Shown here: positions 4,530 to 27,682 of the stretch, piece by piece
Position numbering within the stretch: position 1 is the stretch's first letter
Layout of the letters: the number at the start of each line of letters is the position of its first letter
From: a virus
Reading direction: 5' to 3' (one strand)
DNA length: 64,000 nucleotides
Virus record (IMG/VR): IMGVR_UViG_3300028394_000057
Coordinates: 1 to 64,000 of that record
Notes under the pieces: model-generated
What the model saw: only the letters and a program-made list of their open reading frames with translations
Database searches by the model: none
Told to the model about the DNA's origin: nothing
Program-made: the position numbers and the translations under genes

Positions 4530-7475
4530 ATGGCTATTAGTTCAAATAAATATATTCAAAAAATATCTTCTCAACATCCAACTGCCTTATGGTCGTTAGA
4601 TGATGAAGCATATTATGTTAAATTAATGTCGGATAGCGGAAGAGACTTAATAAATTGGACAAATGTTAACGCCGATAGTGTTACTAATATAGTTCCAGAA
4701 AACATAATTTTACCACGCAAAGATAGACCTTGCACAGAAATTGTTGGGTTAGAAATTGGTGGGGAAAATATTTATGGAAGCGTGTATCTTATAAGTGATG
4801 AAACTTTTACCTCGCAATCAGGCTCTTTTGATATTTCTTTTAATGTATATTCATATGGAAGCGATATACGTTATGCAAGGGTTGGTTATCAAATAGGAAC
4901 AACTAAATCAATTACAGGAGTTGGAAAGAGGACCACTCAAAACAGTCAAGTAAAATATTTTACAAGCAGTCCCCATGGTTTTACTAATGGACAATTTGTT
5001 ACTGTTTCTGGTACTGTTCCAACAGGGGCAAATCCAGGTGCCTATGACCAGGATGGAATTGTAGAAGTAATTAGTTCAACAACTTTTTGTATAACTAGTG
5101 GACTTAACTTTAATGCTTCGATTGCAGCAAATGAGTCTGCAGGAGAAACGTTTGTTGGTCAGATGGCAGTTGCGTCAGATGTTCGGTTGGCTGGAGAACA
5201 AAATAAATGGCTTTTTTTATCGGGACAATTTACTAGAGCAGTTTCAGGTGCAAAACTAAGATTAAAAATCTTTTATGACGGTGATTATGAAAAAACATTT
5301 TTAGTTAATGGAATAGATGTAGGAGAAAACTCATTAAAATTTGTTGGTAAATCTTCTGGACAAACCCCAGTAGAACTACCATCCGACATTGCAACAGATG
5401 AAACTTATGGAATTCCTGCAGAAAACTTTTTATCAAATTCCAACAAGGGTTATTATATTGTAAAAGACAACATACTTTGTACAGAAAATTCTTCAATTCC
5501 AATGGTTTATGGTTCTTCAAACACAACAGTCTTGTTCACAAACAACAATGCCCCATCATTAATTTTTCCTGGATTTGGATTTCTTAATGATTCTGGAATA
5601 AATAAAACATACAATTTTGAAACTTTTATTAGAATAAACGGAAATACAACAAGTCCAAAAAGAATTTTAGGACCTCTACAATCAGATGATGGGGTTTATG
5701 TGGATGGTTCTTTTATTGGTTTAAAAATAAATAATTTATATAAAACTGTTTATGTTGGAGAATGGTTTAAACCAATGCTATTAAATATTCAATACACAAA
5801 AAATAACATAGAACTTTTTATAAATGCAGAAAAACTTATAAACATAAATACTGCAAATGAAAGTATTTCTTTTCCAGAAAAAATTGCTACTACTGGGACA
5901 TATATTGACAAAGACCAGGATTGGATTGGTTTTTATTATTATGATGAATTTAATTCAATAGAGGTTGATACAGTTGCAATATATTGCTATGTTGTAAATG
6001 AATCAATATTAAAACAAAGACTTTTATATGCACAAGCAGTAAAAACATCTATTTTAGAAAATCAGGCTATTCAGAATAATGGAGAATTTTTTCATTTTCA
6101 GTATCCGTCATCTAACTATAGCAAGAATTACAATTATCCAACCTTTTCTAAATGGGAAAATGCTAGAATATTAGAAAATATAACAATAAAAGATAATGCA
6201 TTGTGTACTTTAGAATATGAATTGCCATCAATAAATTTAGGAACAAAAACACAAAATGAATGGCTGTCTGACCAGTATGAAATACAAAGTGAGGCAACAA
6301 ATTTTATGAGTTTAAAACCAGATTCATCCTATGACGATATTTATGGATACATATATTTTGATAATACAAATATTTTATCAGAGCCTATTTCATCAATATA
6401 TGCTGTTATAAAAAAACCAGCATCATCGGGCACCGAACAAAGACTTTTAACTATATACAATAATTATTCAAAAAATTATTTTAAAATTTGCTTAATTGGC
6501 TCAACTCTTTCATATGTTTTAAATTACAATGGAGTAGACACACAAATCTACTCAACGTCAAGTTCAATAATAAATAATAAAATTGCAATAGGAATTAATT
6601 TAGATATTATTAAAAATTCAACAAATTATGAATTATTATCATTTTTTAATGATAACAATTTGGTAATTTATGTTGGAGGAATGTTAGGAACAGAATATAC
6701 CTTTGACGGAAAAATCTATAAATTTGGAATATGTAATTCTAGAAATTCTTCAAATATTATTGCAAATTTTAATGAAAATGGAATAATGATACCAGCATCA
6801 TCCTTAGAAGATAATGTAGCAACATATACATTGTTTGTTGAAGAATTGTTTGATAATTTATTTTTAGATATTAAAACAAAATCATATTGGGAATCTTCAG
6901 TTTCTTTATTAAATTTATCTTATTTAAACTCGGATACACCAGATTTGAAATTTTTTCAACTAAACATAGATTATCCAGAAAATGTAAACATTGTTGATGG
7001 AGAATATGATACAACAAATGAATTAATTAAATCATATATAAGTTTTCAAGAAAACTCATCAGGTTTATCCGAATCAATTTTTTCTTCAACAGTACCACTT
7101 ACAAAAAATAAAATAATTGATGCAAAATTAAATTGGGCAAATAAAAAATATGAATTTATTGACCATACATTAGTTTACTCACCATCAGACATAGATATAA
7201 CTGATTACAGTGTTGTAATGCATTTAGAATTTGTTTCTAATGTTTATACAAAACCAATTAAATTAAAATATTTAGAGTTGGCATCAAAAACAACTGAAAG
7301 CAATAATGTTTCTACAATTACAACAACATCTGGAGCACCAGTTGAGCATTACTCTCTTGATGAAAATCAATTATTTGATTATCAAAATGATTCTGGTATT
7401 TTAATAACAAAAGAATCAACTTCATATTTAAATTTAAACAATAAAAGCGGCATTAGAATGGTTGGTTTAGAATAA
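4530..7475 (+). CDS. Large virion (minor tail/adhesion) protein with lectin-like regions
   Basis: 981 residues, Asn/Ser/Ile-rich with a beta-strand pattern throughout and no signal peptide or membrane segment. Near residues 130-193 is a small beta-module (HGFTNGQFVTVSG...) that recurs in three other virion proteins of this window. The N-terminal TALWSLDD and later segments such as SFIGLKINN...YVGEWFKPMLLNIQYT look like concanavalin A/LamG-type sandwich strands, which often bind glycans. No precise family is recognised; the virion role is inferred from composition and from position between the fibre and portal regions. Codon use is extremely AT-rich (AAT, TTT, ATA). It overlaps the next gene by one base (TAATG). 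Confidence 0.7.
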   Translation: MAISSNKYIQKISSQHPTALWSLDDEAYYVKLMSDSGRDLINWTNVNADSVTNIVPENIILPRKDRPCTEIVGLEIGGENIYGSVYLISDETFTSQSGSFDISFNVYSYGSDIRYARVGYQIGTTKSITGVGKRTTQNSQVKYFTSSPHGFTNGQFVTVSGTVPTGANPGAYDQDGIVEVISSTTFCITSGLNFNASIAANESAGETFVGQMAVASDVRLAGEQNKWLFLSGQFTRAVSGAKLRLKIFYDGDYEKTFLVNGIDVGENSLKFVGKSSGQTPVELPSDIATDETYGIPAENFLSNSNKGYYIVKDNILCTENSSIPMVYGSSNTTVLFTNNNAPSLIFPGFGFLNDSGINKTYNFETFIRINGNTTSPKRILGPLQSDDGVYVDGSFIGLKINNLYKTVYVGEWFKPMLLNIQYTKNNIELFINAEKLININTANESISFPEKIATTGTYIDKDQDWIGFYYYDEFNSIEVDTVAIYCYVVNESILKQRLLYAQAVKTSILENQAIQNNGEFFHFQYPSSNYSKNYNYPTFSKWENARILENITIKDNALCTLEYELPSINLGTKTQNEWLSDQYEIQSEATNFMSLKPDSSYDDIYGYIYFDNTNILSEPISSIYAVIKKPASSGTEQRLLTIYNNYSKNYFKICLIGSTLSYVLNYNGVDTQIYSTSSSIINNKIAIGINLDIIKNSTNYELLSFFNDNNLVIYVGGMLGTEYTFDGKIYKFGICNSRNSSNIIANFNENGIMIPASSLEDNVATYTLFVEELFDNLFLDIKTKSYWESSVSLLNLSYLNSDTPDLKFFQLNIDYPENVNIVDGEYDTTNELIKSYISFQENSSGLSESIFSSTVPLTKNKIIDAKLNWANKKYEFIDHTLVYSPSDIDITDYSVVMHLEFVSNVYTKPIKLKYLELASKTTESNNVSTITTTSGAPVEHYSLDENQLFDYQNDSGILITKESTSYLNLNNKSGIRMVGLE

Positions 7476-16012: not shown

Positions 16013-16747
16013 ATGGCAACTTATACAAGAGGAAATGCTGCTAACATCGTAGTCGGTGCTGCAGCAGTTTTTTTAGGAAATTACGGTGTAAACGTAAACA
16101 GCACAATTGCATCTGGAACTAACCCAGGTGCTGGTGCTCCAGATTTCGTAGAAGCAACGTCTTACAAGGATACCCTTGCAAACAACGTTAACTACACATC
16201 TGTAGGTTTTACTAACAACGGTCTAGAACTATCATTCGACCCATCATTCGGTGAGGTAATGGTAGACCAAATTCTAGACGTAGCAAAGTTGTACAAGTCA
16301 GGTATGAAGGTAACTCTAAAGACTTCTCTAGCAGAAGCAACTTTGGAAAACTTGCTACTAGCACTTGCACAGCGTGGTTCTGTAAACCGTTACACTAACA
16401 CTGCAACAACAGCCGCAGCAACAATTACATATACTCCAGGTACAAGCACTGAAAACAGTACTGCACATGGTAAGTATATTGACTTGTTCTCAGGTGACCT
16501 AGGTGACTACCCAGTTGAGCGTTCGCTCATTGCAATTGGTGCTGGTCTGTCTACCATTGGAAACAATGCAACAGGTGTAGCAACAACTGACCAGTCAGAA
16601 CGTGTCTATGTCGCATATCGTGTTGTAAACATCAGTAACGTAACTGTCGCTGCAAAGCGTGATGCTGCAACTACATTCGATGTAGAGTTCCGTCTGCTCC
16701 CAGATGCAAACGGTGCTTACGGTAAAATCGTAGACCGCACATACTAA
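16013..16747 (+). CDS. Major tail (tube) protein
   Basis: 244 residues; polymerises into the tail tube around the tape measure. Start ATG follows GAGGTGAAAAAAAT. The sequence has the beta-rich tube-protein character, with GLELSFDPSFGEVMVDQILDVAKLY, then an inserted Thr/Ala-rich loop and a C-terminal VAAKRDAATTFDVEFRLLPDANG typical of major tail proteins. Position between the completion gene and the chaperone/tape measure genes fits. Like the capsid gene it uses C-ending codons (AAC, TTC, GAC), indicating strong expression, and it is a monocistronic unit between its own promoter and terminator. Confidence 0.88.
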   Translation: MATYTRGNAANIVVGAAAVFLGNYGVNVNSTIASGTNPGAGAPDFVEATSYKDTLANNVNYTSVGFTNNGLELSFDPSFGEVMVDQILDVAKLYKSGMKVTLKTSLAEATLENLLLALAQRGSVNRYTNTATTAAATITYTPGTSTENSTAHGKYIDLFSGDLGDYPVERSLIAIGAGLSTIGNNATGVATTDQSERVYVAYRVVNISNVTVAAKRDAATTFDVEFRLLPDANGAYGKIVDRTY

Positions 16748-16777: not shown

Positions 16778-16809
16778 CTGCCCTGGGGATACCTGGGGCA
16801 GTTTCTTTT
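16778..16809 (+). terminator. Terminator after major tail protein
   Basis: A 10-base stem, CTGCCCTGGG with CCTGGGGCAG (two G-T pairs), and a GATA loop, followed by TTTCTTTT. Confidence 0.85.
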
Positions 16810-16817
16810 GGTATAAT
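16809..16817 (+). promoter_or_regulatory. Extended -10 promoter for long tail chaperone (leaderless)
   Basis: TGGTATAAT begins in the terminator T-tract. TATAAT (16812-16817) lies 5 bases before ATG 16823 and there is no Shine-Dalgarno, so a leaderless transcript is predicted. Confidence 0.65.
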
Positions 16818-16822
16818 AGACT

Positions 16823-17539
16823 ATGCCTACTAATATATATGATACAAAATACATTTACCTTATTGATGGAACAGAGTTAGAGGTTAGTCCATTAAAGATT
16901 AAATATTTAAAAGAATTTATGGAAGTATTTGAACCAATAAAAAATACTAAAAATGATGATGAGTCTATTAAAATACTTATTCATTGTATGAAAATAGCGA
17001 TGAAACAATATTATCCTAAAATTAAAACAATTGAAGATGTTGAAGATAGTATGGATTTGCCAACAATTTATAAAGTTTTAGAAATTTCTGCTGGAATTAA
17101 AATGGGTCAGCCTACAGATAGTAGTATAGACAATAGTGTACAACAAATACCAGTAGCACCAACAGATAATGGTTCTTGGAAAACACTAGATTTGGCTAAA
17201 CTAGAAGCAGAAATTTTTGTTCTTGGAATATGGAAAAACTTTGATGAACTAGAATCAAACATATGTATGCCAGAATTAATGGCTATTCTTGAATCAAAAA
17301 GAGAATTGGATTATAATGAAAAGAAATTTCTTGCCGCTATGCAAGGTGTAGACCTTGATGAAGCCAGCGGTAAAAAAGAAGAAGACCCTTGGGAAGCAAT
17401 GAAAGCCAGGGTCGCAGCAAAAACTAGCGGTGTTGGTAATGGAGACCCTAATGATATAACAGCATTACAAGGAATAAAAGCACAGCAAACAGGATTTGGT
17501 ATAGGTATGGGTCTTGATTATGAAGTTGTTTCAAAATAG
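16823..17539 (+). CDS. Tail assembly chaperone, long form (gpGT-like)
   Basis: 238 residues between tail tube and tape measure genes, the conserved place of the tail assembly chaperones. The N-terminal ~95 residues are paralogous to the whole next gene (shared DGT, PLKI, DLPT-YK and SAGIKM/ASGIKL blocks). The C-terminal ~140 residues are an extension with WKTLDLAKLEAEIFVLGIW and an acidic EEDPWEAMKARVAAK. In most siphophages the short and long chaperones arise from one gene by programmed frameshift; here the long form is uninterrupted and separately encoded. The chaperones coat the tape measure during tail assembly. Confidence 0.78.
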   Translation: MPTNIYDTKYIYLIDGTELEVSPLKIKYLKEFMEVFEPIKNTKNDDESIKILIHCMKIAMKQYYPKIKTIEDVEDSMDLPTIYKVLEISAGIKMGQPTDSSIDNSVQQIPVAPTDNGSWKTLDLAKLEAEIFVLGIWKNFDELESNICMPELMAILESKRELDYNEKKFLAAMQGVDLDEASGKKEEDPWEAMKARVAAKTSGVGNGDPNDITALQGIKAQQTGFGIGMGLDYEVVSK

Positions 17540-17548
17540 ATTGTGTTA

Positions 17549-17557
17549 TGCTATAAT
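17549..17557 (+). promoter_or_regulatory. Extended -10 promoter for short tail chaperone
   Basis: TGCTATAAT (TATAAT at 17552-17557) followed by a leader with AAGGAGG at 17571-17577. It gives the short chaperone and tape measure a promoter separate from the long chaperone. Confidence 0.65.
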
Positions 17558-17581
17558 TAATAAGAGCCTTAAGGAGGATTC

Positions 17582-17905
17582 ATGTCTACAACAATTAACG
17601 AAGCAAGAACTGTAGAACTACTGGACGGAACAAGTATTACTGTTCGTCCACTTAAAATCTCTCTTCTACGCCCTTTTATGACAAAGTTTGAGGGTATTGC
17701 AGAAGTAGCAGATAGCAATGATAAATCAATGAGTTTGCTCATTGAATGTGTGCAGATTGCTTTTCAGCAATTTGCTCCAGAACTAGCCAAGGATGCAAAG
17801 GCTCTAGAAGAACTTTTGGACCTACCAACCGTATACAAGATTGTTGAAGAAGCATCTGGTATTAAACTTAGTGAAGCCTCACTAATGGGTGGTTTAATCG
17901 GCTAA
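17582..17905 (+). CDS. Tail assembly chaperone, short form (gpG-like)
   Basis: 107 residues, strong AAGGAGG ribosome binding site. It aligns along its length with the N-terminal domain of the upstream gene: LLDGTSITVRPLKISLLRPF against LIDGTELEVSPLKIKYLKEF, and DLPTVYKIVEEASGIKL against DLPTIYKVLEISAGIKM. No slippery heptamer is evident near its stop and no T-like frame follows, since the tape measure starts 18 bases later. It therefore acts as the short G-type chaperone, made in excess from its own promoter and better ribosome site. The duplicated arrangement is unusual. Confidence 0.78.
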   Translation: MSTTINEARTVELLDGTSITVRPLKISLLRPFMTKFEGIAEVADSNDKSMSLLIECVQIAFQQFAPELAKDAKALEELLDLPTVYKIVEEASGIKLSEASLMGGLIG

Positions 17906-17923: not shown

Positions 17924-20900
17924 ATGGCTGATATCAATTCCAATATAAAAGTTAATATAGATACGTCAGACGCTCTGGCACAACTAAAACTTTTACAGCA
18001 ACAGATATCAGCCTTTCAGCAAGCAATGCGAAATGCAGGAGCACAAAATGCTGCCGCTGCTGCTGCAATGCAGCAAAATCTTATAACCTCAATTAATGCT
18101 ACTGGAAAATTCAGAGCAAACGTTCAAACAATAAAAACAAGTGCAGAATCATTTACAGAATCTTTAGAAAAGAATAAATTTTCTATTGGAGAATACTTTA
18201 GATATGCTGGCGGTGCTTCAAAAACTTTCGGTAAATTGTTTAAATCAGAGTATGCAACTATAACTCAGGTAGCAAAAGAACGAGTAAAAGAACTACAAAC
18301 TCAATATATCAAACTTGGTCGTGATGCCACTGGCGCTATGAAGGCTATTGCTGTTAAGCCGCTATCACTTGACATGAATAATCTTGCAACTAAAACACAG
18401 TTAGCAGCACAAAAACAACAATTGTTTAATCAGTTAATGAAACAAGGTTCTACAAGTCTTCTAAATTTTGGTAAAAATACTCAATGGGCTGGTCGCCAAC
18501 TTATGGTTGGTTTTACAATTCCATTAACTATGTTAGGTTCTGCCGCTGCTAAAGCATACATGCAAATTGAAGCAGCATCTGTAAAATTTAGACGTGTTTA
18601 TGGTGACATGAATACAACTACAGAAGAAGCCAATAAGATGGTTAGGTCTGTACAAGGTCTTGCAAATGAATTTACAAAGTATGGTGTTGCAGTTGCAGAT
18701 ACTATGGATATGGCTGCCCAGGCAGCCGCTATGGGTAAAACTGGTGCAGACCTTATTGCACAAATAAATAATGCTGCAAAACTTTCTATCTTAGGTGGGG
18801 TAGACCAAACAAAGGCTTTAGAAACTACTATTAGTCTTACAAATGCTTTTGGAGTTGCAGCAGAAGATTTAGGTAAAAATATTGATTTCCTAAACGCAGT
18901 GGAAAACCAAACTACACTTAGTATCGATGATTTAACTACTGCTATTCCAAAGGCTGCCCCTGTTGTTAAACAACTTGGTGGAGATGTAAAAGATTTGGCA
19001 TTCTTTATGACAGCAATGAAAGAAGGTGGAATTAACGCATCTGAAGGTGCTAACGCAATTAAATCTGGTTTGGCATCATTAATTAATCCATCAGAAAAAG
19101 CATCAAAATTTCTTCAAGGATTTGGCATTAATGTTAAGGGTATTGTTGAAGCAGATAAAGGTAATCTAAAGAAAACAGTTGTTGATTTTGCTAAAGCACT
19201 AGACACTCTTGACCCACTAAACCGTGCTCGTGCTATTGAACAAATGTTTGGAAAGTTCCAATTTTCCAGACTTTCAACATTGTTCCAAAACGTAATTGCC
19301 GAAGGTAGCCAAGCATCTCAAGTAGCAGAATTATCTAAAAACTCAGCAGAAGAATTAGCAATCTTATCAGAACGAGAAATGAAAAAGATTTCAGATTCTC
19401 CAATGTTTAAGTTTCAAAAATCTATTCAAGACATGCAAGCCAAACTTGCACCTGTTGGCGAAGCATTCTTAAAGGCTGTCACACCAATCATTGAATTTGT
19501 TAGCAAAATACTAGATGGTTTTAATAGTATGGGCGAAGGTGCCAAAAACTTTGTTTCAATGCTAGTGTTGGCTGTTGCTGGTATCGGTCCTGTATTGCTT
19601 ATGACATTTGGTTTGATTGCAAACGGTGTAGCAAATATTATGAAACTATTTACAAATATGAAGGGTTTCATTAATAAGACAACAAAGCCATCAGATATTC
19701 TTGGTGAACAAACTAGTTATATGACTACAGAACAGTTGAAGGGTGCAACAGTTGCAGCATCTCTTGACCAAGCACATGCCAAACTTCGTCAAACATTTAC
19801 CTCTGAAAAAGCAGCATTAGATGAATTAACTAGGTCATATAGACAAGCAGTAGAAGCCCAACAGCAATATTCTGGTGTTCCAGGAATACCAACAGGAAAT
19901 CCAAATGCTGTTCCTAAAAGATATGCTAATGGTGTTTCTATGGTTCCTGGTCCAAGAGGTGCAGGAGATATTATTCCAGCCTTGCTGTCTCCAGGTGAAG
20001 CAGTTATACCAGCCAAACATGCACAAAAATATGCTCCAGTAATTGCTGGTATGGTTTCTGGTAATCTTCCAGGATTTGAAACTGGAACTACTGGTGTTGG
20101 TATTCGTCAAAGCACAATTGGACCACTTACTCAAAAACAAACCGAAGGAATTTTAAGAACTGGTAAAACACTTAAAGAAATTAGCGATGAAGTTTATGCT
20201 GGACCATATGGAGCAGTTCCTCCAGAACACTATGTAAGACAGGTTGAGCCAACTAGTGGGCACTCATTCCCTGCATTCCAAGTTGGTGGAATTTATGAAA
20301 AGGCTGATGGTAGTCAAGTATTTGTAAAACCACAAATGGATTTAACCTCAGCACTAGCAGAAGTTCGTGGTACTCAAATTGCAAGAGACGCACATCAATT
20401 AACAACACCTATGCAAAAAATTGTTACAATGATGGACCCAACAGACCCAGAAGGTATGCGTAAATTTATTGCTTTAGAATCACCACTAAATGAACAAATT
20501 GCTAAAATTTCTACATCATTTACAAAGGGACAATATTTTAAACAACTAGTTGCTTCTTTACTTCGTGGAGATAAAGACCTTGGTATTGGAAATCTTGGCG
20601 GAGATATCCTTGCTGATGTTGGTACTGCAGGTGTATTCCAAACAGCATCTGGTAAGCGTAAACTTGGCGGTAGCATTAATTCAATGGAAGAGCAAGCCAT
20701 CATTAATTTGCTTGGTGTAAAGGGCGGTGCTAAGAGATTCTTTGCTGAATCAACCTCAGATATTGCTAAGAACATGTCATCTGCTGAATATGATGCAACA
20801 ATGAAAGCAGAAATTCAAGCAGTAATGCCAAGGCTTCAAGCCACCATTGCTGGTTTTGGAAATCTTTCACCAGAAGAAAAAGCAGCATACGCAAATATGC

Positions 20901-23900
20901 AGCAAAGACTTCAAGCAGGTATGAGTGTTGATTGGGGTAAATATCAGGTTATGCATTCTGCTGTTCCTTCAAAAAAGTATGCTATGGGTGGTATGGTTCC
21001 AGGATATTTTGATGGAAAAGATAATGTTAAAAAAGAATCTGATTATACAACAGAAGAACTTTATAAACTATTAAACATTCAAGAAACACATGCTTTTGGT
21101 GAAATGAATATTAAAGACCCAAGAGTTCAAGCACAACTGCAAAAACAATTTAAAGAATCTACTCCAGAAGACTTTAATAAATTTAAAGTTCTTAGTAATC
21201 TTACTATTAGTTTGCCAGGTAAATTAAATCAATTAATTAAAGAAACTAGTAACGGTGTAAGCGGAACAATGTTTGGTCAAGCCTACAATGCTTTGCGTGG
21301 TAAATTAAGTAAAACTGCAAAAATGTCTGGTATTAAAAATCTATCAGATTCTCAATCTCTTGAAGATATTATTGGAACAAAATTTGCAGGAGAACCATTA
21401 ATTAAAGATTCAATATTTGCAAGAATAGTAGAGCAAAATATTAACGAACAAACTGCAAACACCTCTAGTATTGGTGCTGCAGCAAACTTAATTTGGGAAA
21501 GAACAAAACAAGTTGGTACAGTTAGACCTAAACGTGATGGTTTAGATGCACCTAGATGGAACGATTTGATTCGAACAATGTTGCAAAATGATGAACTTGT
21601 TTTGGTTCCAGGAAGTGAAAAAGGATTTCCAGTTGCAAATACTCCATTTGGTGGTCGTTTTGGAAGAATCAAAGCAGATGGTATTGGCTCAAGTAAGACT
21701 GCTGAAGGACGTGCTCTTCGTAAACTAGCACAAGATGCAGCAAATGCATGGGCTAGGTCAGGCAATAAAACAACACCTTTGCCTAGTGTACAAGATAATA
21801 ATGGAAATATAGTTCCATTAACTTGGAGAGATAATAGTGCAAAACCAGGAAGTTTTTCAACAGATGATTTTGCTGCCTATGACGATACAAGTAAAAAATA
21901 TGCATCAGACCTATCTTTTGCCCCTGGAGGATTTGATGTTCTTAAAAATCTTAAATTCTTTGCTGATGGTGGAATGGTTCCAGGTTATTCTGGAGGAACA
22001 GATAATATAGTTAAAAAACTATCTCTAAAAGATTTAGATTTTGCTGGAATGAAAAAGGATAAACTTGGTGCAGTGCCAGGTGGCTACAGAATAATTGATG
22101 GTAAAAAATATTATGTAAAAAATACTAAATCATCTACAGACGCATCAATAGAACTAATTATGTCTGAATTAAACCAGGCTATGCAAAATCCTGGTGCCCA
22201 TAAAATGAACATGTTTGGCGAAGGATTGGTTGGGAGTAAGTTTGTTCCAGGTTTAAAGAACACAATGGATTCCACTATGACTAATTGGTTGCAATCACAA
22301 CCAAACAAATTCTCAGCAGCAGAAACACTTATGGCGGCTGCTAAAGATTTCATTACAAAAGATGCTCCATTTAACGCAATGATTGGAAATGACGATGGTC
22401 ACACAAATAATATACTTTTTAATCCAAAAACTCGCAAATTTGTAAACCTTGACCTTGGGGTTAATTCAGCAAAAGATAAAGGTAAGTCAACAAAATTTAA
22501 TGAAATGGCACAAATTGGAATTCAAAACTTTAAATCTAGAATTATGATGGCTATTAGAACTGTTCTCTCTCCCAAAAAAGCCGATGTTCTTTCAAAAAAA
22601 TATGGAATTGATTTAAATGCATATTCTAAGGGGGATAAATTTTCAAATGAATATGACACATCTCCAGAAATTAGCAAAATGGCTAAACTGCTTGGTTTTG
22701 ATTTATCTAAACCAATATCCGAAAACCCAATTGATTTAAGAACCAACCCTTTTGTTTTGTCACTACTTGCTAAAAATCCAGAACTTGCAGAAATTTTAAA
22801 ACTACAAGTAACAAGTGGTGGAGTAAACCCACAAAGTGCTCTTTCACAAATCTTTAAAACTTTACAAAGTGCAAGCAAAAAACCAATTCTGAAATTTGCT
22901 GATGGTGTATTTTCAGTTCCAGGACCAAAGGGTGCTGGCGATGTAGTTCCTGCTATGCTATCTCCTGGTGAGGCTGTTATTCCTGCTGACCGTGCTGCTC
23001 AACACCGTGGACTAATTAAGGGAATGATTGCTGGTAATTTGCCAGGGTATGCAAAGGGAACTATAATTCCAGGATACGTTCATGGCAAAGATGAAGTTAA
23101 AAGAATACCAGGAATGCCAGCATCCGCAGTTACCGTTACTTCTTTTGATGCTGATAATCAGGCTATGCTTGCAGAACAATCAAAAGTTGTTGCTTTAGAA
23201 GAAGCCTTAGTTGCAAAAAAGACAGATTTAACTCGTTTAACTCGTGAACAAATTGAAGAGCAGATGGCAGTAGAGGATGACATCTACAGACAACTATTAG
23301 AAAAACAAGAAGAACTAAAGATGAAACATGTTCTTACTGAAGATGAAAGAAAGTTGCTAGAGTCAAACAAGCAAATTATGCTTAGAAAAGAAGAAGCCTT
23401 TAAACTTGAAAAGAATGTAATAGAAAAAGAAAAAAGAGGACTGTTTACAAGAAATGCTACGACTGGAAAAGTTCAAGGTCTGATGTATGGTCTTTCTGGA
23501 GCAGCAGGTCTTGCATCAACTGTGCCAGGTGCTGTAGGAGAAAGTGCACAGCAAATGCTTCCAGTTATTGGTGCTGCCACTGCCGCTATGTCTGTTATTC
23601 CTGGCTACGCTGGCATGATTGTTGGAGCAGGTGCAGCATTAGTTACAGCCTACATGCAAGTACAAGAGAGGTTAAACAAGATTAGAGATGAGGCATTGGC
23701 TCTGGGAACTGCTATGGGTTCATCTACAAAGTCTATTGATAAATTTGCGGAATTTGCCAAAACTGTTACTGGTAGTCAGACAATGGATAAACGTAGAGAA
23801 ACTAGTGCTGGCACTTTCTTTAATGTTGTTCAGGGTAAAACAACTTTTGGCGAAGCATATATGCAAGGAGATGCTGGAAAAGCCTTAGTAAAATCAGTTG

Positions 23901-26900
23901 GAGAATCAATTAAGGGTGGAGGATTAACTCAAGCAAAATCTATGATTGTAAATCAATTATCTACTGCTATTGCCAGCGGAGCAATGTCTCCTGCTCAGGC
24001 TAGAAGTATTGCATCAAATCTAGGTGCTCAACTAGGAGACATGTCTTTAGGTATTGAGGTTGCAGGAAAAATAACTGACCTTGTAGGTCCAAAAGGAGAA
24101 GACTTAAAGAAAGAACCTTTGCAAATAAGACTGCGTCTTGTTGCTGACTCTATGGAGCAGTTTAAGAAGCAAGCAGAAATTTCTAATGCTAACGCAACTG
24201 ATGCCGCAAAGAATGCAGGAACATCTGGTGCAGGTATTGGTATAGGTGCTGGTGCTGGTTTAGCGGCTGGCTTTGGTGTTGCTGGTGCAGGAAGCATAGT
24301 AGCAAATCTTGGCTCTACAGGAATCTTGGCAGGAATGGCTCTTGGAACTACAGCAGGTTCTGTAGTTCCAGTTATTGGAACTATTGCTGGAGCACTTGTA
24401 GGATTCTCGATTGCTGCAGTTCAACTGCAAGGAGATATTGCAAAAAATGCAGGGTATTTACAAGCAAGTCTAGGAAGTGCCTTATCTGTTCAACAACAAA
24501 TGGTTGACTCTTTAACAGTAGATTATGAAAAGAGAATAGCGTCAGCAAAGGCTGCTGGGGATACAGCAGAAGCCACTAGACTACAAAATCAGTACCTTGC
24601 TGACCAAGCAGAGTTATTAGACTTTAATAAAAAACAAACTCAAGAAATGTATGGTATTTTAAATGAACAAAGTACTGGCTTAGGGTTTATGTTAAATGCA
24701 CAAGTTGCAAACTTGGATACAGCAAGAGAAGGTTTGAAGAAAGCATTTGAAGGAACTGGGCAAGAGGTTCAGGCTAAACTTGCACAAGAACAGATTGATG
24801 CTATGTCAGGTTCTCTTGCACAAAAGACTATGCTTATGTCAGCAGTTGGTCAAAAACAAATAGGGCTTAACCAAATTGGAGTTGCACAAAAAGCGTTTGG
24901 TTCTGACCAAGCAGGAGCAGATACTCTGCAAACGCTTATGGAAAATAGCCCAACCGAACTAAACAGAACTCTTGGTCTAGCAGGAAACATGGCTGAAACA
25001 GAGCAAAAGAAATTTGTAATAGACATGAGTCTAAAAGACCCTATTCAAGCAAAGATAATGAATGATGCTGTAGAACTAGCACAAAAAACAACTGGCGTTT
25101 TCTTTGGAGAAAAGAAAACAGCGGAAGCAATTATGAGATTTGCTGTAGAAAATCCAGAAAAGATGCTAGAGTTTCAAGAAAACGTAACAGATTTAAAAAA
25201 TATACAAGGAACAACTTTTGATATTACAGTTGCACAAAAAATTCTTGGTCCAGATTTAGCAAAGGCTTTGGGAGAAAAAAGCGTTGGAGCATATTTTAAA
25301 AAGTATAACAAGCAAAACAAGATTGTGTTCTTATCTGAATTCCAGCAGGTAATGACAATGCTTGCAAAGGGTGATGAAGACATGCTTGCATCTTGGAGAT
25401 TGTGGAATGCTGAAAATGGTGGCAAAAAAACAATGGCTGATTACGCTGCCTACCAGTCTGACAGAACAGTTACTAGTCAGGGAGTCGACAATACAATAGT
25501 TCCTGGCACTGGTACCACTGGCGGTAGTGGTAATGGTCCAGAGAGTTCTTGGCTAGACCCTTTTGTTAAAAATATAAGGGATGCTGGAACATCGACTCAA
25601 AAATTAACAACTGGTTTTAATGATTCAGCAGCAGCACTTACAAAATTTGCGAATAAAGTACCAAATTTTATTGGTTTATTTACACAACTTAAGAAAGCAG
25701 GGGCTAGTGCAAAAATTATCGAGGCTGCACTTGGCGGTGATGAAGCCACAACAGCAAAATTGATTGATACAAAAACTGGACAATTAAAAGCAGGGGCTAA
25801 AAAAATTCTTGATGGAATTAGCAAAGCCATTAGAGAACAAAAAATGGTAGACTGGATGCTCCTTACAGGGGCAGGAAAAAGACAAAAGTATAACGATATG
25901 TATCAAGCAAACCTGGATGTTCTTAAAATTGATGAAGATAAAATTAATAAAACTTATGATGATAGAATTAAAGCATTAGATGAAATAAATACTCTTCAAG
26001 AAAAAAATACTGCTCAACAACAAAGCACTTTAACTATTGCAGATGCCTTATCTAAAGGAGACATTGCAGGGGCTGCTCGTGCCGCATTAGAAAAAACAAA
26101 ACAAGACACAGCATTTGCTATTGAACAACAAAAGATAAATCTAGAAAATGCTAGACAAACAGAACTTGGAAAACTTACAACAAATATTAATGGTGTTCAA
26201 ATGACAAGAGTAGAAATAGAAGAAAAGATTAGAATTAATGCAGAAAAAATTACTAAAAGTAAAGCAGAAGAATTAGAATCTGAGATTCGTATTGGTAAAT
26301 TAGCAGAAAAACGATTTAAAGCATACAAACCAGTTCCAGGTGTGTCCACTGGTGGCGGTGGTGGTGGCGGTGGCGGCAAAGCAGATACAAAACCCACACC
26401 AGATACAAAACCCACACCAGATACTAAGCCCACACCAGATACAAAACCCACACTAGATAATAAGCCCACACCAGATACAAAACCTAGTGGCGTAGTTGGT
26501 GACATTACAAGTTCTCCACAAGGCAAAGCATTTACAGCAGCACTCAAAGGTGCTCAGGATGTTACACCTGGTGCTTTAAAGGCTGCTCAGGATTATGCTA
26601 CTGCTAAGAAAAATGCAGGGGCATCAATGAGCGATGCTGCTGCAGCAAAGAAATTTGGTGGAAAAAATACTGCAGCATTTAAAACATGGAAAGCAAATCA
26701 AACAAAACTTGCTAAAGCATTAACAGCAGCACAGGATTACGGTATTGTCGATAGTTCTGGTAACGTTCTTACAGCAGACCAAGTTACTAATGCAAGTATT
26801 TATCAAAGATATGCAATGCTTAGTTCAAAGAGTGGTCAAGCAGATGCAGCAGAATCTTTAAAAGGTATTCCAGCAGAAATTGCTTCTAGGGCAAAATTGA

Positions 26901-27682
26901 TTAAAAATTCAAATAAAGATTTTGCAGCAGACAAAACAAAACTTGATGGAATGAAGAAAACATTTGAAAAAGCAGGTGGTTTATTGTATATGCTTCCAGG
27001 ATACTATCAAACATGGTTAAATACCTCAGATGCTTTAAGACCTACAACTCCTTTTGGAAAACTTATTGCAAAAGGTGCTAAACCAGAAGAACTTATAAAT
27101 CAAGCAACAAAAATGGCAACGAAGTTTGGTGAAATAGATAATTATAGAAAAGCACTTACAAGTGCTGGGTATACAGACTCGTTGCTTTTTCAGGCTAAAC
27201 TATTTGATAGTAATTATGGTCGTGATGGACAAACTTTAAAGCAAACATCCGATTTTGCATCTGGTCAAATGTTTAAGCCACATAAAGCCTATACAGGAAC
27301 AAATATTGGATATGGTAAAAACCAAATACTTCCTGACGCAGAAAACATGCTTAGATTTGGTAATCAATATTACGCTATGGGTGGTATGGTTTATGCAAAC
27401 AAGGGGCTTAAGGTTGCAGCAAGTAAGTATGCTCTTGGAACTGATACTATTCCTGCTATGCTTACCCCAGGAGAATTTGTAATTAAAAAATCAGCAGTGG
27501 ATTCAATTGGATTAAATAAACTTAATTCTATAAACTCTGGAACATTGTCATCTAATTCAGTGTATAATTATAGTATCAATGTTAATGTTAAATCAGATGC
27601 AAATGTAAACCAAATTGCAGATACTGTTATTAGACAAATTAAACAAATTGATTCACAAAGATTAAGGAGTGTCAGTATATAA
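17924..27682 (+). CDS. Giant tape measure protein with embedded kinase-like modules
   Basis: 3252 residues. Residues ~186-472 match the TP901-type tape measure core (AQAAAMGKTGADLIAQ, TAMKEGGINASEGANAIKSG); hydrophobic segments lie at ~541-570, ~1860-1914 and ~2102-2169. Linkers of the type GDIIPALLSPGEAVIP occur at ~673 and ~1659, with a C-terminal variant at ~3150. GGMVPGY-x-x-G-x-D linkers lie at ~1020 and ~1347, with a variant at ~1711. Between linkers are two kinase-like modules: Lys802/Glu813/Asp885/Asn890/Asp898, and Lys1399/Glu1415/Asp1491/Asn1496/Asp1510 with IGNDDGHTNN and NLDLG. A DTKPTP repeat lies at 2821-2854. The protein sets tail length and enters the cell with DNA; the embedded modules may be delivered effectors (inference). 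The start follows the chaperone by 18 bases with a weak ribosome site. Confidence 0.9.
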   Translation: MADINSNIKVNIDTSDALAQLKLLQQQISAFQQAMRNAGAQNAAAAAAMQQNLITSINATGKFRANVQTIKTSAESFTESLEKNKFSIGEYFRYAGGASKTFGKLFKSEYATITQVAKERVKELQTQYIKLGRDATGAMKAIAVKPLSLDMNNLATKTQLAAQKQQLFNQLMKQGSTSLLNFGKNTQWAGRQLMVGFTIPLTMLGSAAAKAYMQIEAASVKFRRVYGDMNTTTEEANKMVRSVQGLANEFTKYGVAVADTMDMAAQAAAMGKTGADLIAQINNAAKLSILGGVDQTKALETTISLTNAFGVAAEDLGKNIDFLNAVENQTTLSIDDLTTAIPKAAPVVKQLGGDVKDLAFFMTAMKEGGINASEGANAIKSGLASLINPSEKASKFLQGFGINVKGIVEADKGNLKKTVVDFAKALDTLDPLNRARAIEQMFGKFQFSRLSTLFQNVIAEGSQASQVAELSKNSAEELAILSEREMKKISDSPMFKFQKSIQDMQAKLAPVGEAFLKAVTPIIEFVSKILDGFNSMGEGAKNFVSMLVLAVAGIGPVLLMTFGLIANGVANIMKLFTNMKGFINKTTKPSDILGEQTSYMTTEQLKGATVAASLDQAHAKLRQTFTSEKAALDELTRSYRQAVEAQQQYSGVPGIPTGNPNAVPKRYANGVSMVPGPRGAGDIIPALLSPGEAVIPAKHAQKYAPVIAGMVSGNLPGFETGTTGVGIRQSTIGPLTQKQTEGILRTGKTLKEISDEVYAGPYGAVPPEHYVRQVEPTSGHSFPAFQVGGIYEKADGSQVFVKPQMDLTSALAEVRGTQIARDAHQLTTPMQKIVTMMDPTDPEGMRKFIALESPLNEQIAKISTSFTKGQYFKQLVASLLRGDKDLGIGNLGGDILADVGTAGVFQTASGKRKLGGSINSMEEQAIINLLGVKGGAKRFFAESTSDIAKNMSSAEYDATMKAEIQAVMPRLQATIAGFGNLSPEEKAAYANMQQRLQAGMSVDWGKYQVMHSAVPSKKYAMGGMVPGYFDGKDNVKKESDYTTEELYKLLNIQETHAFGEMNIKDPRVQAQLQKQFKESTPEDFNKFKVLSNLTISLPGKLNQLIKETSNGVSGTMFGQAYNALRGKLSKTAKMSGIKNLSDSQSLEDIIGTKFAGEPLIKDSIFARIVEQNINEQTANTSSIGAAANLIWERTKQVGTVRPKRDGLDAPRWNDLIRTMLQNDELVLVPGSEKGFPVANTPFGGRFGRIKADGIGSSKTAEGRALRKLAQDAANAWARSGNKTTPLPSVQDNNGNIVPLTWRDNSAKPGSFSTDDFAAYDDTSKKYASDLSFAPGGFDVLKNLKFFADGGMVPGYSGGTDNIVKKLSLKDLDFAGMKKDKLGAVPGGYRIIDGKKYYVKNTKSSTDASIELIMSELNQAMQNPGAHKMNMFGEGLVGSKFVPGLKNTMDSTMTNWLQSQPNKFSAAETLMAAAKDFITKDAPFNAMIGNDDGHTNNILFNPKTRKFVNLDLGVNSAKDKGKSTKFNEMAQIGIQNFKSRIMMAIRTVLSPKKADVLSKKYGIDLNAYSKGDKFSNEYDTSPEISKMAKLLGFDLSKPISENPIDLRTNPFVLSLLAKNPELAEILKLQVTSGGVNPQSALSQIFKTLQSASKKPILKFADGVFSVPGPKGAGDVVPAMLSPGEAVIPADRAAQHRGLIKGMIAGNLPGYAKGTIIPGYVHGKDEVKRIPGMPASAVTVTSFDADNQAMLAEQSKVVALEEALVAKKTDLTRLTREQIEEQMAVEDDIYRQLLEKQEELKMKHVLTEDERKLLESNKQIMLRKEEAFKLEKNVIEKEKRGLFTRNATTGKVQGLMYGLSGAAGLASTVPGAVGESAQQMLPVIGAATAAMSVIPGYAGMIVGAGAALVTAYMQVQERLNKIRDEALALGTAMGSSTKSIDKFAEFAKTVTGSQTMDKRRETSAGTFFNVVQGKTTFGEAYMQGDAGKALVKSVGESIKGGGLTQAKSMIVNQLSTAIASGAMSPAQARSIASNLGAQLGDMSLGIEVAGKITDLVGPKGEDLKKEPLQIRLRLVADSMEQFKKQAEISNANATDAAKNAGTSGAGIGIGAGAGLAAGFGVAGAGSIVANLGSTGILAGMALGTTAGSVVPVIGTIAGALVGFSIAAVQLQGDIAKNAGYLQASLGSALSVQQQMVDSLTVDYEKRIASAKAAGDTAEATRLQNQYLADQAELLDFNKKQTQEMYGILNEQSTGLGFMLNAQVANLDTAREGLKKAFEGTGQEVQAKLAQEQIDAMSGSLAQKTMLMSAVGQKQIGLNQIGVAQKAFGSDQAGADTLQTLMENSPTELNRTLGLAGNMAETEQKKFVIDMSLKDPIQAKIMNDAVELAQKTTGVFFGEKKTAEAIMRFAVENPEKMLEFQENVTDLKNIQGTTFDITVAQKILGPDLAKALGEKSVGAYFKKYNKQNKIVFLSEFQQVMTMLAKGDEDMLASWRLWNAENGGKKTMADYAAYQSDRTVTSQGVDNTIVPGTGTTGGSGNGPESSWLDPFVKNIRDAGTSTQKLTTGFNDSAAALTKFANKVPNFIGLFTQLKKAGASAKIIEAALGGDEATTAKLIDTKTGQLKAGAKKILDGISKAIREQKMVDWMLLTGAGKRQKYNDMYQANLDVLKIDEDKINKTYDDRIKALDEINTLQEKNTAQQQSTLTIADALSKGDIAGAARAALEKTKQDTAFAIEQQKINLENARQTELGKLTTNINGVQMTRVEIEEKIRINAEKITKSKAEELESEIRIGKLAEKRFKAYKPVPGVSTGGGGGGGGGKADTKPTPDTKPTPDTKPTPDTKPTLDNKPTPDTKPSGVVGDITSSPQGKAFTAALKGAQDVTPGALKAAQDYATAKKNAGASMSDAAAAKKFGGKNTAAFKTWKANQTKLAKALTAAQDYGIVDSSGNVLTADQVTNASIYQRYAMLSSKSGQADAAESLKGIPAEIASRAKLIKNSNKDFAADKTKLDGMKKTFEKAGGLLYMLPGYYQTWLNTSDALRPTTPFGKLIAKGAKPEELINQATKMATKFGEIDNYRKALTSAGYTDSLLFQAKLFDSNYGRDGQTLKQTSDFASGQMFKPHKAYTGTNIGYGKNQILPDAENMLRFGNQYYAMGGMVYANKGLKVAASKYALGTDTIPAMLTPGEFVIKKSAVDSIGLNKLNSINSGTLSSNSVYNYSINVNVKSDANVNQIADTVIRQIKQIDSQRLRSVSI
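26384..26485 (+). repeat. 18-bp tandem repeat coding DTKPTP in tape measure
   Basis: About 5.7 copies of an 18-base unit, GATACAAAACCCACACCA with variants, preceded by a run of nine glycine codons. It encodes a Pro/Lys/Thr-rich spacer. Confidence 0.9.

Follow-up and report, generated by a model that had tools for sequence, protein, structure and literature searches.

Does the ribosomal slip by which phages make their tail assembly chaperones matter in itself, or does only the resulting protein ratio matter? Long-tailed phages mostly make a short and a long chaperone from one gene via a programmed ribosomal frameshift, and few recoding events in tailed phages are as conserved as this G/GT frameshift. 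The window, a 64,000-nucleotide stretch of viral DNA (IMG/VR record IMGVR_UViG_3300028394_000057), carries the two forms as two genes. It belongs to a large freshwater clade without the slip, which stands beside close relatives that keep it. Nature has thus performed the experiment, and the transition is visible in sequence.

We consider it very likely that, at this tail assembly chaperone locus, two genes have taken over from programmed -1 frameshifting. The two proteins are homologous and their genes are intact. The frameshift signal is lost, the fusion of G with T co-occurs with a second G gene, and the leaders of both genes are conserved. The replacement predicts that the ratio alone matters and that initiation can set it.

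The chaperone locus of the window

The two genes occupy the position of a chaperone locus, with the presumed major tail gene upstream and the tape measure gene downstream:

16013-16747, plus strand: presumed major tail protein gene, the upstream neighbour (phrog_2175 match, E 1.6e-28)
16823-17539, plus strand: GaT, long tail assembly chaperone, an in-frame G-T fusion of 238 aa (open reading frame, BLASTP, PHROG)
17177-17449, plus strand: T domain of GaT, aa 119-209 (phrog_10474; alignment with the -1-frame T reading frames of frameshift relatives)
17582-17905, plus strand: Gb, short form of the tail assembly chaperone, 107 aa, consisting of a G domain alone (open reading frame, BLASTP, PHROG, fold)
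17924-27682, plus strand: tape measure protein gene, 3252 aa (PF10145 PhageMin_Tail, E 2e-24; synteny with annotated tape measure genes)

The gene at the position of 16013-16747 is annotated as major tail protein in Streptomyces and Rhodococcus relatives, and its product is the presumed partner of the T domain. The tape measure protein is presumably the client of both chaperones. By eye, its reading frame contains two kinase-like stretches (20285-20623 and 22079-22459), for which searches of Pfam, PHROG and PDB gave no support. Each consists of a GGxYxxxDGxxxxVK lobe followed by a D/H..N...D.G block, with repeated MVPG and PGEAVIP motifs nearby.

The original prediction described a reading frame of 238 aa followed by one of 107 aa, and both are present. 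It also held the short protein to be a paralogue of the N-terminal domain of the long one. The alignment bears this out, with significant similarity between GaT and Gb (BLASTP, 39% identity and 68% positives over 100 aa, E=6e-25). The predicted motif blocks DGT, PLKI and DLPTxYK occur in both proteins, and the last block reads (S/A)GIK. PHROG 10504, which spans the first 101 residues, matches the N-terminal domains of both (6.5e-23 and 6.2e-18), and PHROG 10474, the T domain, has its sole match at aa 136-209 of the long protein. The G domain is common to both forms, and the T domain is added in the long form alone. PHROG 10504 and PHROG 10474 are separate reading frames in known phages, which hints that G and T are usually joined by a frameshift.

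Among isolated phages, Streptomyces phages of the family Stanwilliamsviridae are closest, and the portal protein agrees with this. GaT corresponds by homology to their G and T reading frames taken together, and homologues are annotated as tail assembly chaperones. The top PDB fold match of the AlphaFold model of Gb (pLDDT 77) is modest (TM 0.46, E 0.39); it is the HK97 tail assembly chaperone 2ob9. Viral fold matches of the same model include many annotated tail assembly chaperones, N15 GT among them. The E-value for 2ob9 is weak; the identification leans mainly on homology and synteny. The GaT model (pLDDT 72) yielded no significant match in the fold search, and no Pfam model matches GaT or Gb. 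The PDB sequence search returned nothing for Gb and only chance matches for GaT (E at least 0.29). From these data we infer that GaT and Gb function as chaperones.

Relatives occur in two states

We classified related loci from viral contigs, 335 in a first pass and 159 in a second. Only two states exist among them, and no mixture of the two. In the first state a continuous G-T reading frame is followed after 25-68 nt by a G-only reading frame (187 unique loci). In the second, a single G reading frame is overlapped by T, always in the -1 frame (about 98 unique loci, 40 in the first set and 60 in the second, with two shared). Every in-frame fusion is accompanied by the short paralogue (187/187), a pairing far above chance. 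The survey thus agrees with the original prediction that duplication stands in place of the frameshift. Loci with GaT alone or T-Gb alone were considered as a third state and rejected, because contig ends cut these loci.

One two-gene locus, L149, has a 776-nt insertion between the GaT and Gb genes that encodes a methyltransferase-like protein; hence the two genes need not adjoin. A search of a genome collection gave one relative (L259, CAINGU010000031.1), with a frameshift-type chaperone locus and a tape measure gene. Its contig is binned as an uncultured cyanobacterium and is possibly a phage contig placed in a cyanobacterial bin. Judging by the Streptomyces and Rhodococcus relatives, the hosts of the clade are likely to be actinobacteria.

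What a fusion without its partner does is known from phage TP901-1. A permanent GT fusion without G (gpGfsT) gives normal-looking but non-infectious particles (PMC4493119). The natural fusion is likewise permanent and in frame, but the TP901-1 variant is a laboratory mutant without separate G, whereas the fusion here always comes with a separate G gene. That G is kept in every natural fusion of this survey agrees with the prediction from TP901-1 (PMC4493119).

Loss of the frameshift signal

The nearest frameshift relatives have an invariant slippery site. In all 60 of these loci, codons 98-100 of G hold a perfect heptamer of the X XXY YYZ type, which reads GGGAAAC, GGGAAAT, CCCAAAC or CCCAAAT. 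In the first set of frameshift loci a perfect heptamer is found at the homologous site in 22 of 40 and CCCGGAA in the other 18. The Streptomyces-phage-like set has the perfect heptamer in 20 of about 38 loci, and CCCGGAA in the rest. The loci with CCCGGAA in place of the perfect heptamer are L161, L162, L175 and 15 other Stanwilliamsviridae-like loci.

In two-gene loci there is no conserved heptamer at the homologous site, neither in the G part of the fusion (Ga) nor in Gb. The GaT gene of the window is one continuous reading frame without a slippery heptamer at this site, and the Gb gene of the window has none there either.

Could a hidden frameshift still set the ratio? GaT might slip near the end of the G domain and so yield a short product, or Gb might be extended, and the second gene would then be an accessory. 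Some material for slippage exists, since AT-rich linkers of 25 of the 187 fused genes hold heptamers such as AAAAAAC, and TTTTTTG occurs in the T domain of some. However, the linker heptamers are scattered and unconserved, unlike the invariant site of the frameshift relatives, and at the homologous position the window lacks them altogether. Extension of Gb fares no better in the window: its -1 frame closes within 9 codons and its +1 frame within 4, and T precedes Gb instead of following it. We regard a hidden frameshift as very unlikely indeed, although, given the 25 linkers, sporadic slippage may occur in some fused relatives. Replacement of the frameshift by two genes remains our preferred reading.

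Order of events

The G tree, rooted on the Stanwilliamsviridae-like group, places Ga in one group (support 100/99) and Gb in another (96/95), both inside a paraphyletic frameshift G, so that Ga and Gb each have a single origin within the frameshift lineage. A first G tree, in which two frameshift loci grouped with Gb and the position of Ga was uncertain, was superseded after 60 frameshift loci were added. Gb is 62% identical to the L294-type frameshift G and Ga 42%, so Ga has changed more. By this comparison of sequences, the short gene resembles the ancestral G gene more than the long gene does. Gb is also the more uniform of the two, with a mean identity of 67% among 40 representatives compared to 50% for Ga.

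The divergence between the copies could be taken to mean that Gb has another task, for example as a dedicated chaperone for the very long tape measure protein, and that it has no fixed-ratio partnership with GaT. Of the two copies, which share only about 40% identity, Gb is the better conserved. Yet Gb is the copy nearest to the single G of the frameshift relatives, which does the ordinary job, and Gb is never absent where the fusion is present. Hence we find a separate task for Gb unlikely.

The T tree is less clear than the G tree. Fused loci, the nearest frameshift loci and L259 form a strong group (100/100) without internal resolution, and the frameshift relatives cluster inside the unresolved fused rows (74/94). 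This clustering is what one would expect if the two-gene state were ancestral in the clade and the frameshift relatives were derived by deletion and rearrangement. But all outgroups (Stanwilliamsviridae-like loci, Rhodococcus Francesca, L304 and L259) are frameshift loci, and we therefore read the frameshift as ancestral. The G tree, too, nests Ga and Gb within frameshift G, and a reversal would need T to be relocated behind Gb and the same heptamer site to be regained. An ancestral two-gene state is in our judgement highly improbable. A single fused clade is not rejected on the T tree (p=0.44); as the tree leaves this clade unresolved, partial reversal may have taken place inside it.

With the frameshift as the starting point, we infer the following order of duplication and fusion. 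The ancestor would have had a single G with a slippery heptamer and T in the -1 frame. A second G copy would then have been gained ahead of the tape measure gene, downstream of a promoter that was already present. Such a promoter is at hand: a TATAAT box lies between T and the tape measure gene in all 33 frameshift relatives with GGGAAAN. Since it is already at the future site of Gb, insertion of a G copy behind it is a simple path. Subsequently the first G copy would have been joined in frame with T, and the slippery site and the leader would have been lost.

Leaders and the ratio of the two forms

The window contains the following signals around the two genes:

16778-16809, plus strand: intrinsic-terminator-like hairpin with a 10-bp stem, a 4-nt loop and a T-rich tail, TTTCTTTT (from sequence)
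16812-16817, plus strand: -10 box of the GaT gene, extended TGGTATAAT, 5 nt before the ATG at 16823 (from sequence)
17552-17557, plus strand: -10 box of the Gb gene, extended TGCTATAAT (from sequence)
17571-17577, plus strand: Shine-Dalgarno AAGGAGG of the Gb gene, whose ATG is at 17582 (from sequence)

The promoters and terminators are consensus matches, and promoter activity is deduced from them. A promoter for each gene, a leaderless long gene without ribosome site and a short gene with AAGGAGG were all part of the original prediction. The corresponding signals are present in the window and are kept among relatives. The hairpin, which separates the major tail gene from the GaT gene, is an addition to that prediction.

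For the fused gene, a -10 box with at most one mismatch is present in 98% of relatives, and exact boxes end 5-6 nt before the ATG. The start of the GaT gene lacks a Shine-Dalgarno motif in the window, and the motif is found in 0% of relatives (185-187 unique loci). Hence the GaT transcript is predicted to be leaderless. For Gb, an exact TATAAT precedes the gene in 97% of 187 relatives, mostly 23-37 nt from the start, and a Shine-Dalgarno motif is present in 96% (median duplex energy -10.7 kcal/mol). The strict leaderless position of the -10 box separates the genes: it is found for Ga in 143 of 185 loci, for Gb in 0 of 187 and for frameshift G in 0 of 60 and 0 of 38 (0/98 in total), counts that measure conservation and not independent origins, because the two-gene loci share one ancestor.

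Of 185 relatives, 89% have a terminator-like element ahead of the fused gene (shuffled sequences, 0%), and there is none between the GaT and Gb genes in any of 186 loci. GaT would thus be made from its own promoter alone, on a leaderless transcript that begins just past the terminator. Gb would have two sources of message, its own promoter and transcripts that run on from the GaT promoter, and a strong ribosome site for translation. Gb is probably the more abundant form, in excess over GaT. By analogy with gpG and gpGT of lambda, the G-only Gb would cover the tape measure protein, and GaT, the scarcer form, would bring in the tail tube protein. According to PMC5009743, lambda G binds the tape measure protein and T the tail tube protein, and gpG and gpGT are made at about 30:1, GT via -1 frameshifting.

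As far as the arrangement of these signals goes, the Gb:GaT ratio is probably set by ordinary expression, that is, by promoters and the mode of initiation. The original prediction proposed control by expression, and the conserved contrast between the two leaders fits it. We advance a more specific account tentatively, and rate it somewhat below an even chance. In a large freshwater siphophage clade, probably with actinobacterial hosts, a universal recoding signal would have been lost once. Control of the ratio would then have moved to a leaderless GaT and a Shine-Dalgarno Gb on overlapping transcripts. If this is true, the preference of the host for leaderless or leadered messages would tune tail assembly.

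Leaderless initiation can be efficient in actinobacteria, and low GaT output need not follow from it. Neither is it special to GaT in this phage. A simple scan of the window shows -10-like boxes 6-7 nt before the starts at 4530, 8243, 10296, 35510 and 61919, mostly without a ribosome site. Leaderless genes are described as common in actinobacteria (PMC3160421).

Comparison with known systems

The window phage shares with lambda gpG/gpGT and HK97 2ob9 the G-only and G-T forms, the predicted G fold (TM 0.46) and the gene order. It differs from lambda in using two genes instead of -1 frameshifting.

A two-gene solution has been reported for some T4-like phages (PMC10885494, citing Vladimirov, Gautam and Davidson 2022). 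By the description given there, separate genes encode the short form and the long fused form without a frameshift, and on this likeness the window case is a variant of an already known arrangement. T4-like phages have contractile tails, however. Moreover, close relatives in the clade studied here allow one to trace how two genes took the place of the frameshift and how the leader type changed with it. A limited literature search gave no report of two genes in phages with non-contractile tails, nor did it turn up a transition that had been traced.

The Stanwilliamsviridae (Streptomyces phages Coruscant, Braelyn and Patelgo) show what the locus looks like with the frameshift in place. They share the G and T domains of the window locus (up to 48% identity) and its position between the major tail and tape measure genes, and they have a terminator and TATAAT before the G gene. 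In contrast to the window, they have one G gene (about 114 aa) with a Shine-Dalgarno leader, followed by T in the -1 frame. The matched complete Streptomyces phage genomes contain no second G copy, with one match to the short protein each. Their annotation lists two tail assembly chaperone genes or, in Patelgo, a frameshift join. For annotation in general, the two-gene clade is a caution that an absent frameshift is not necessarily an error.
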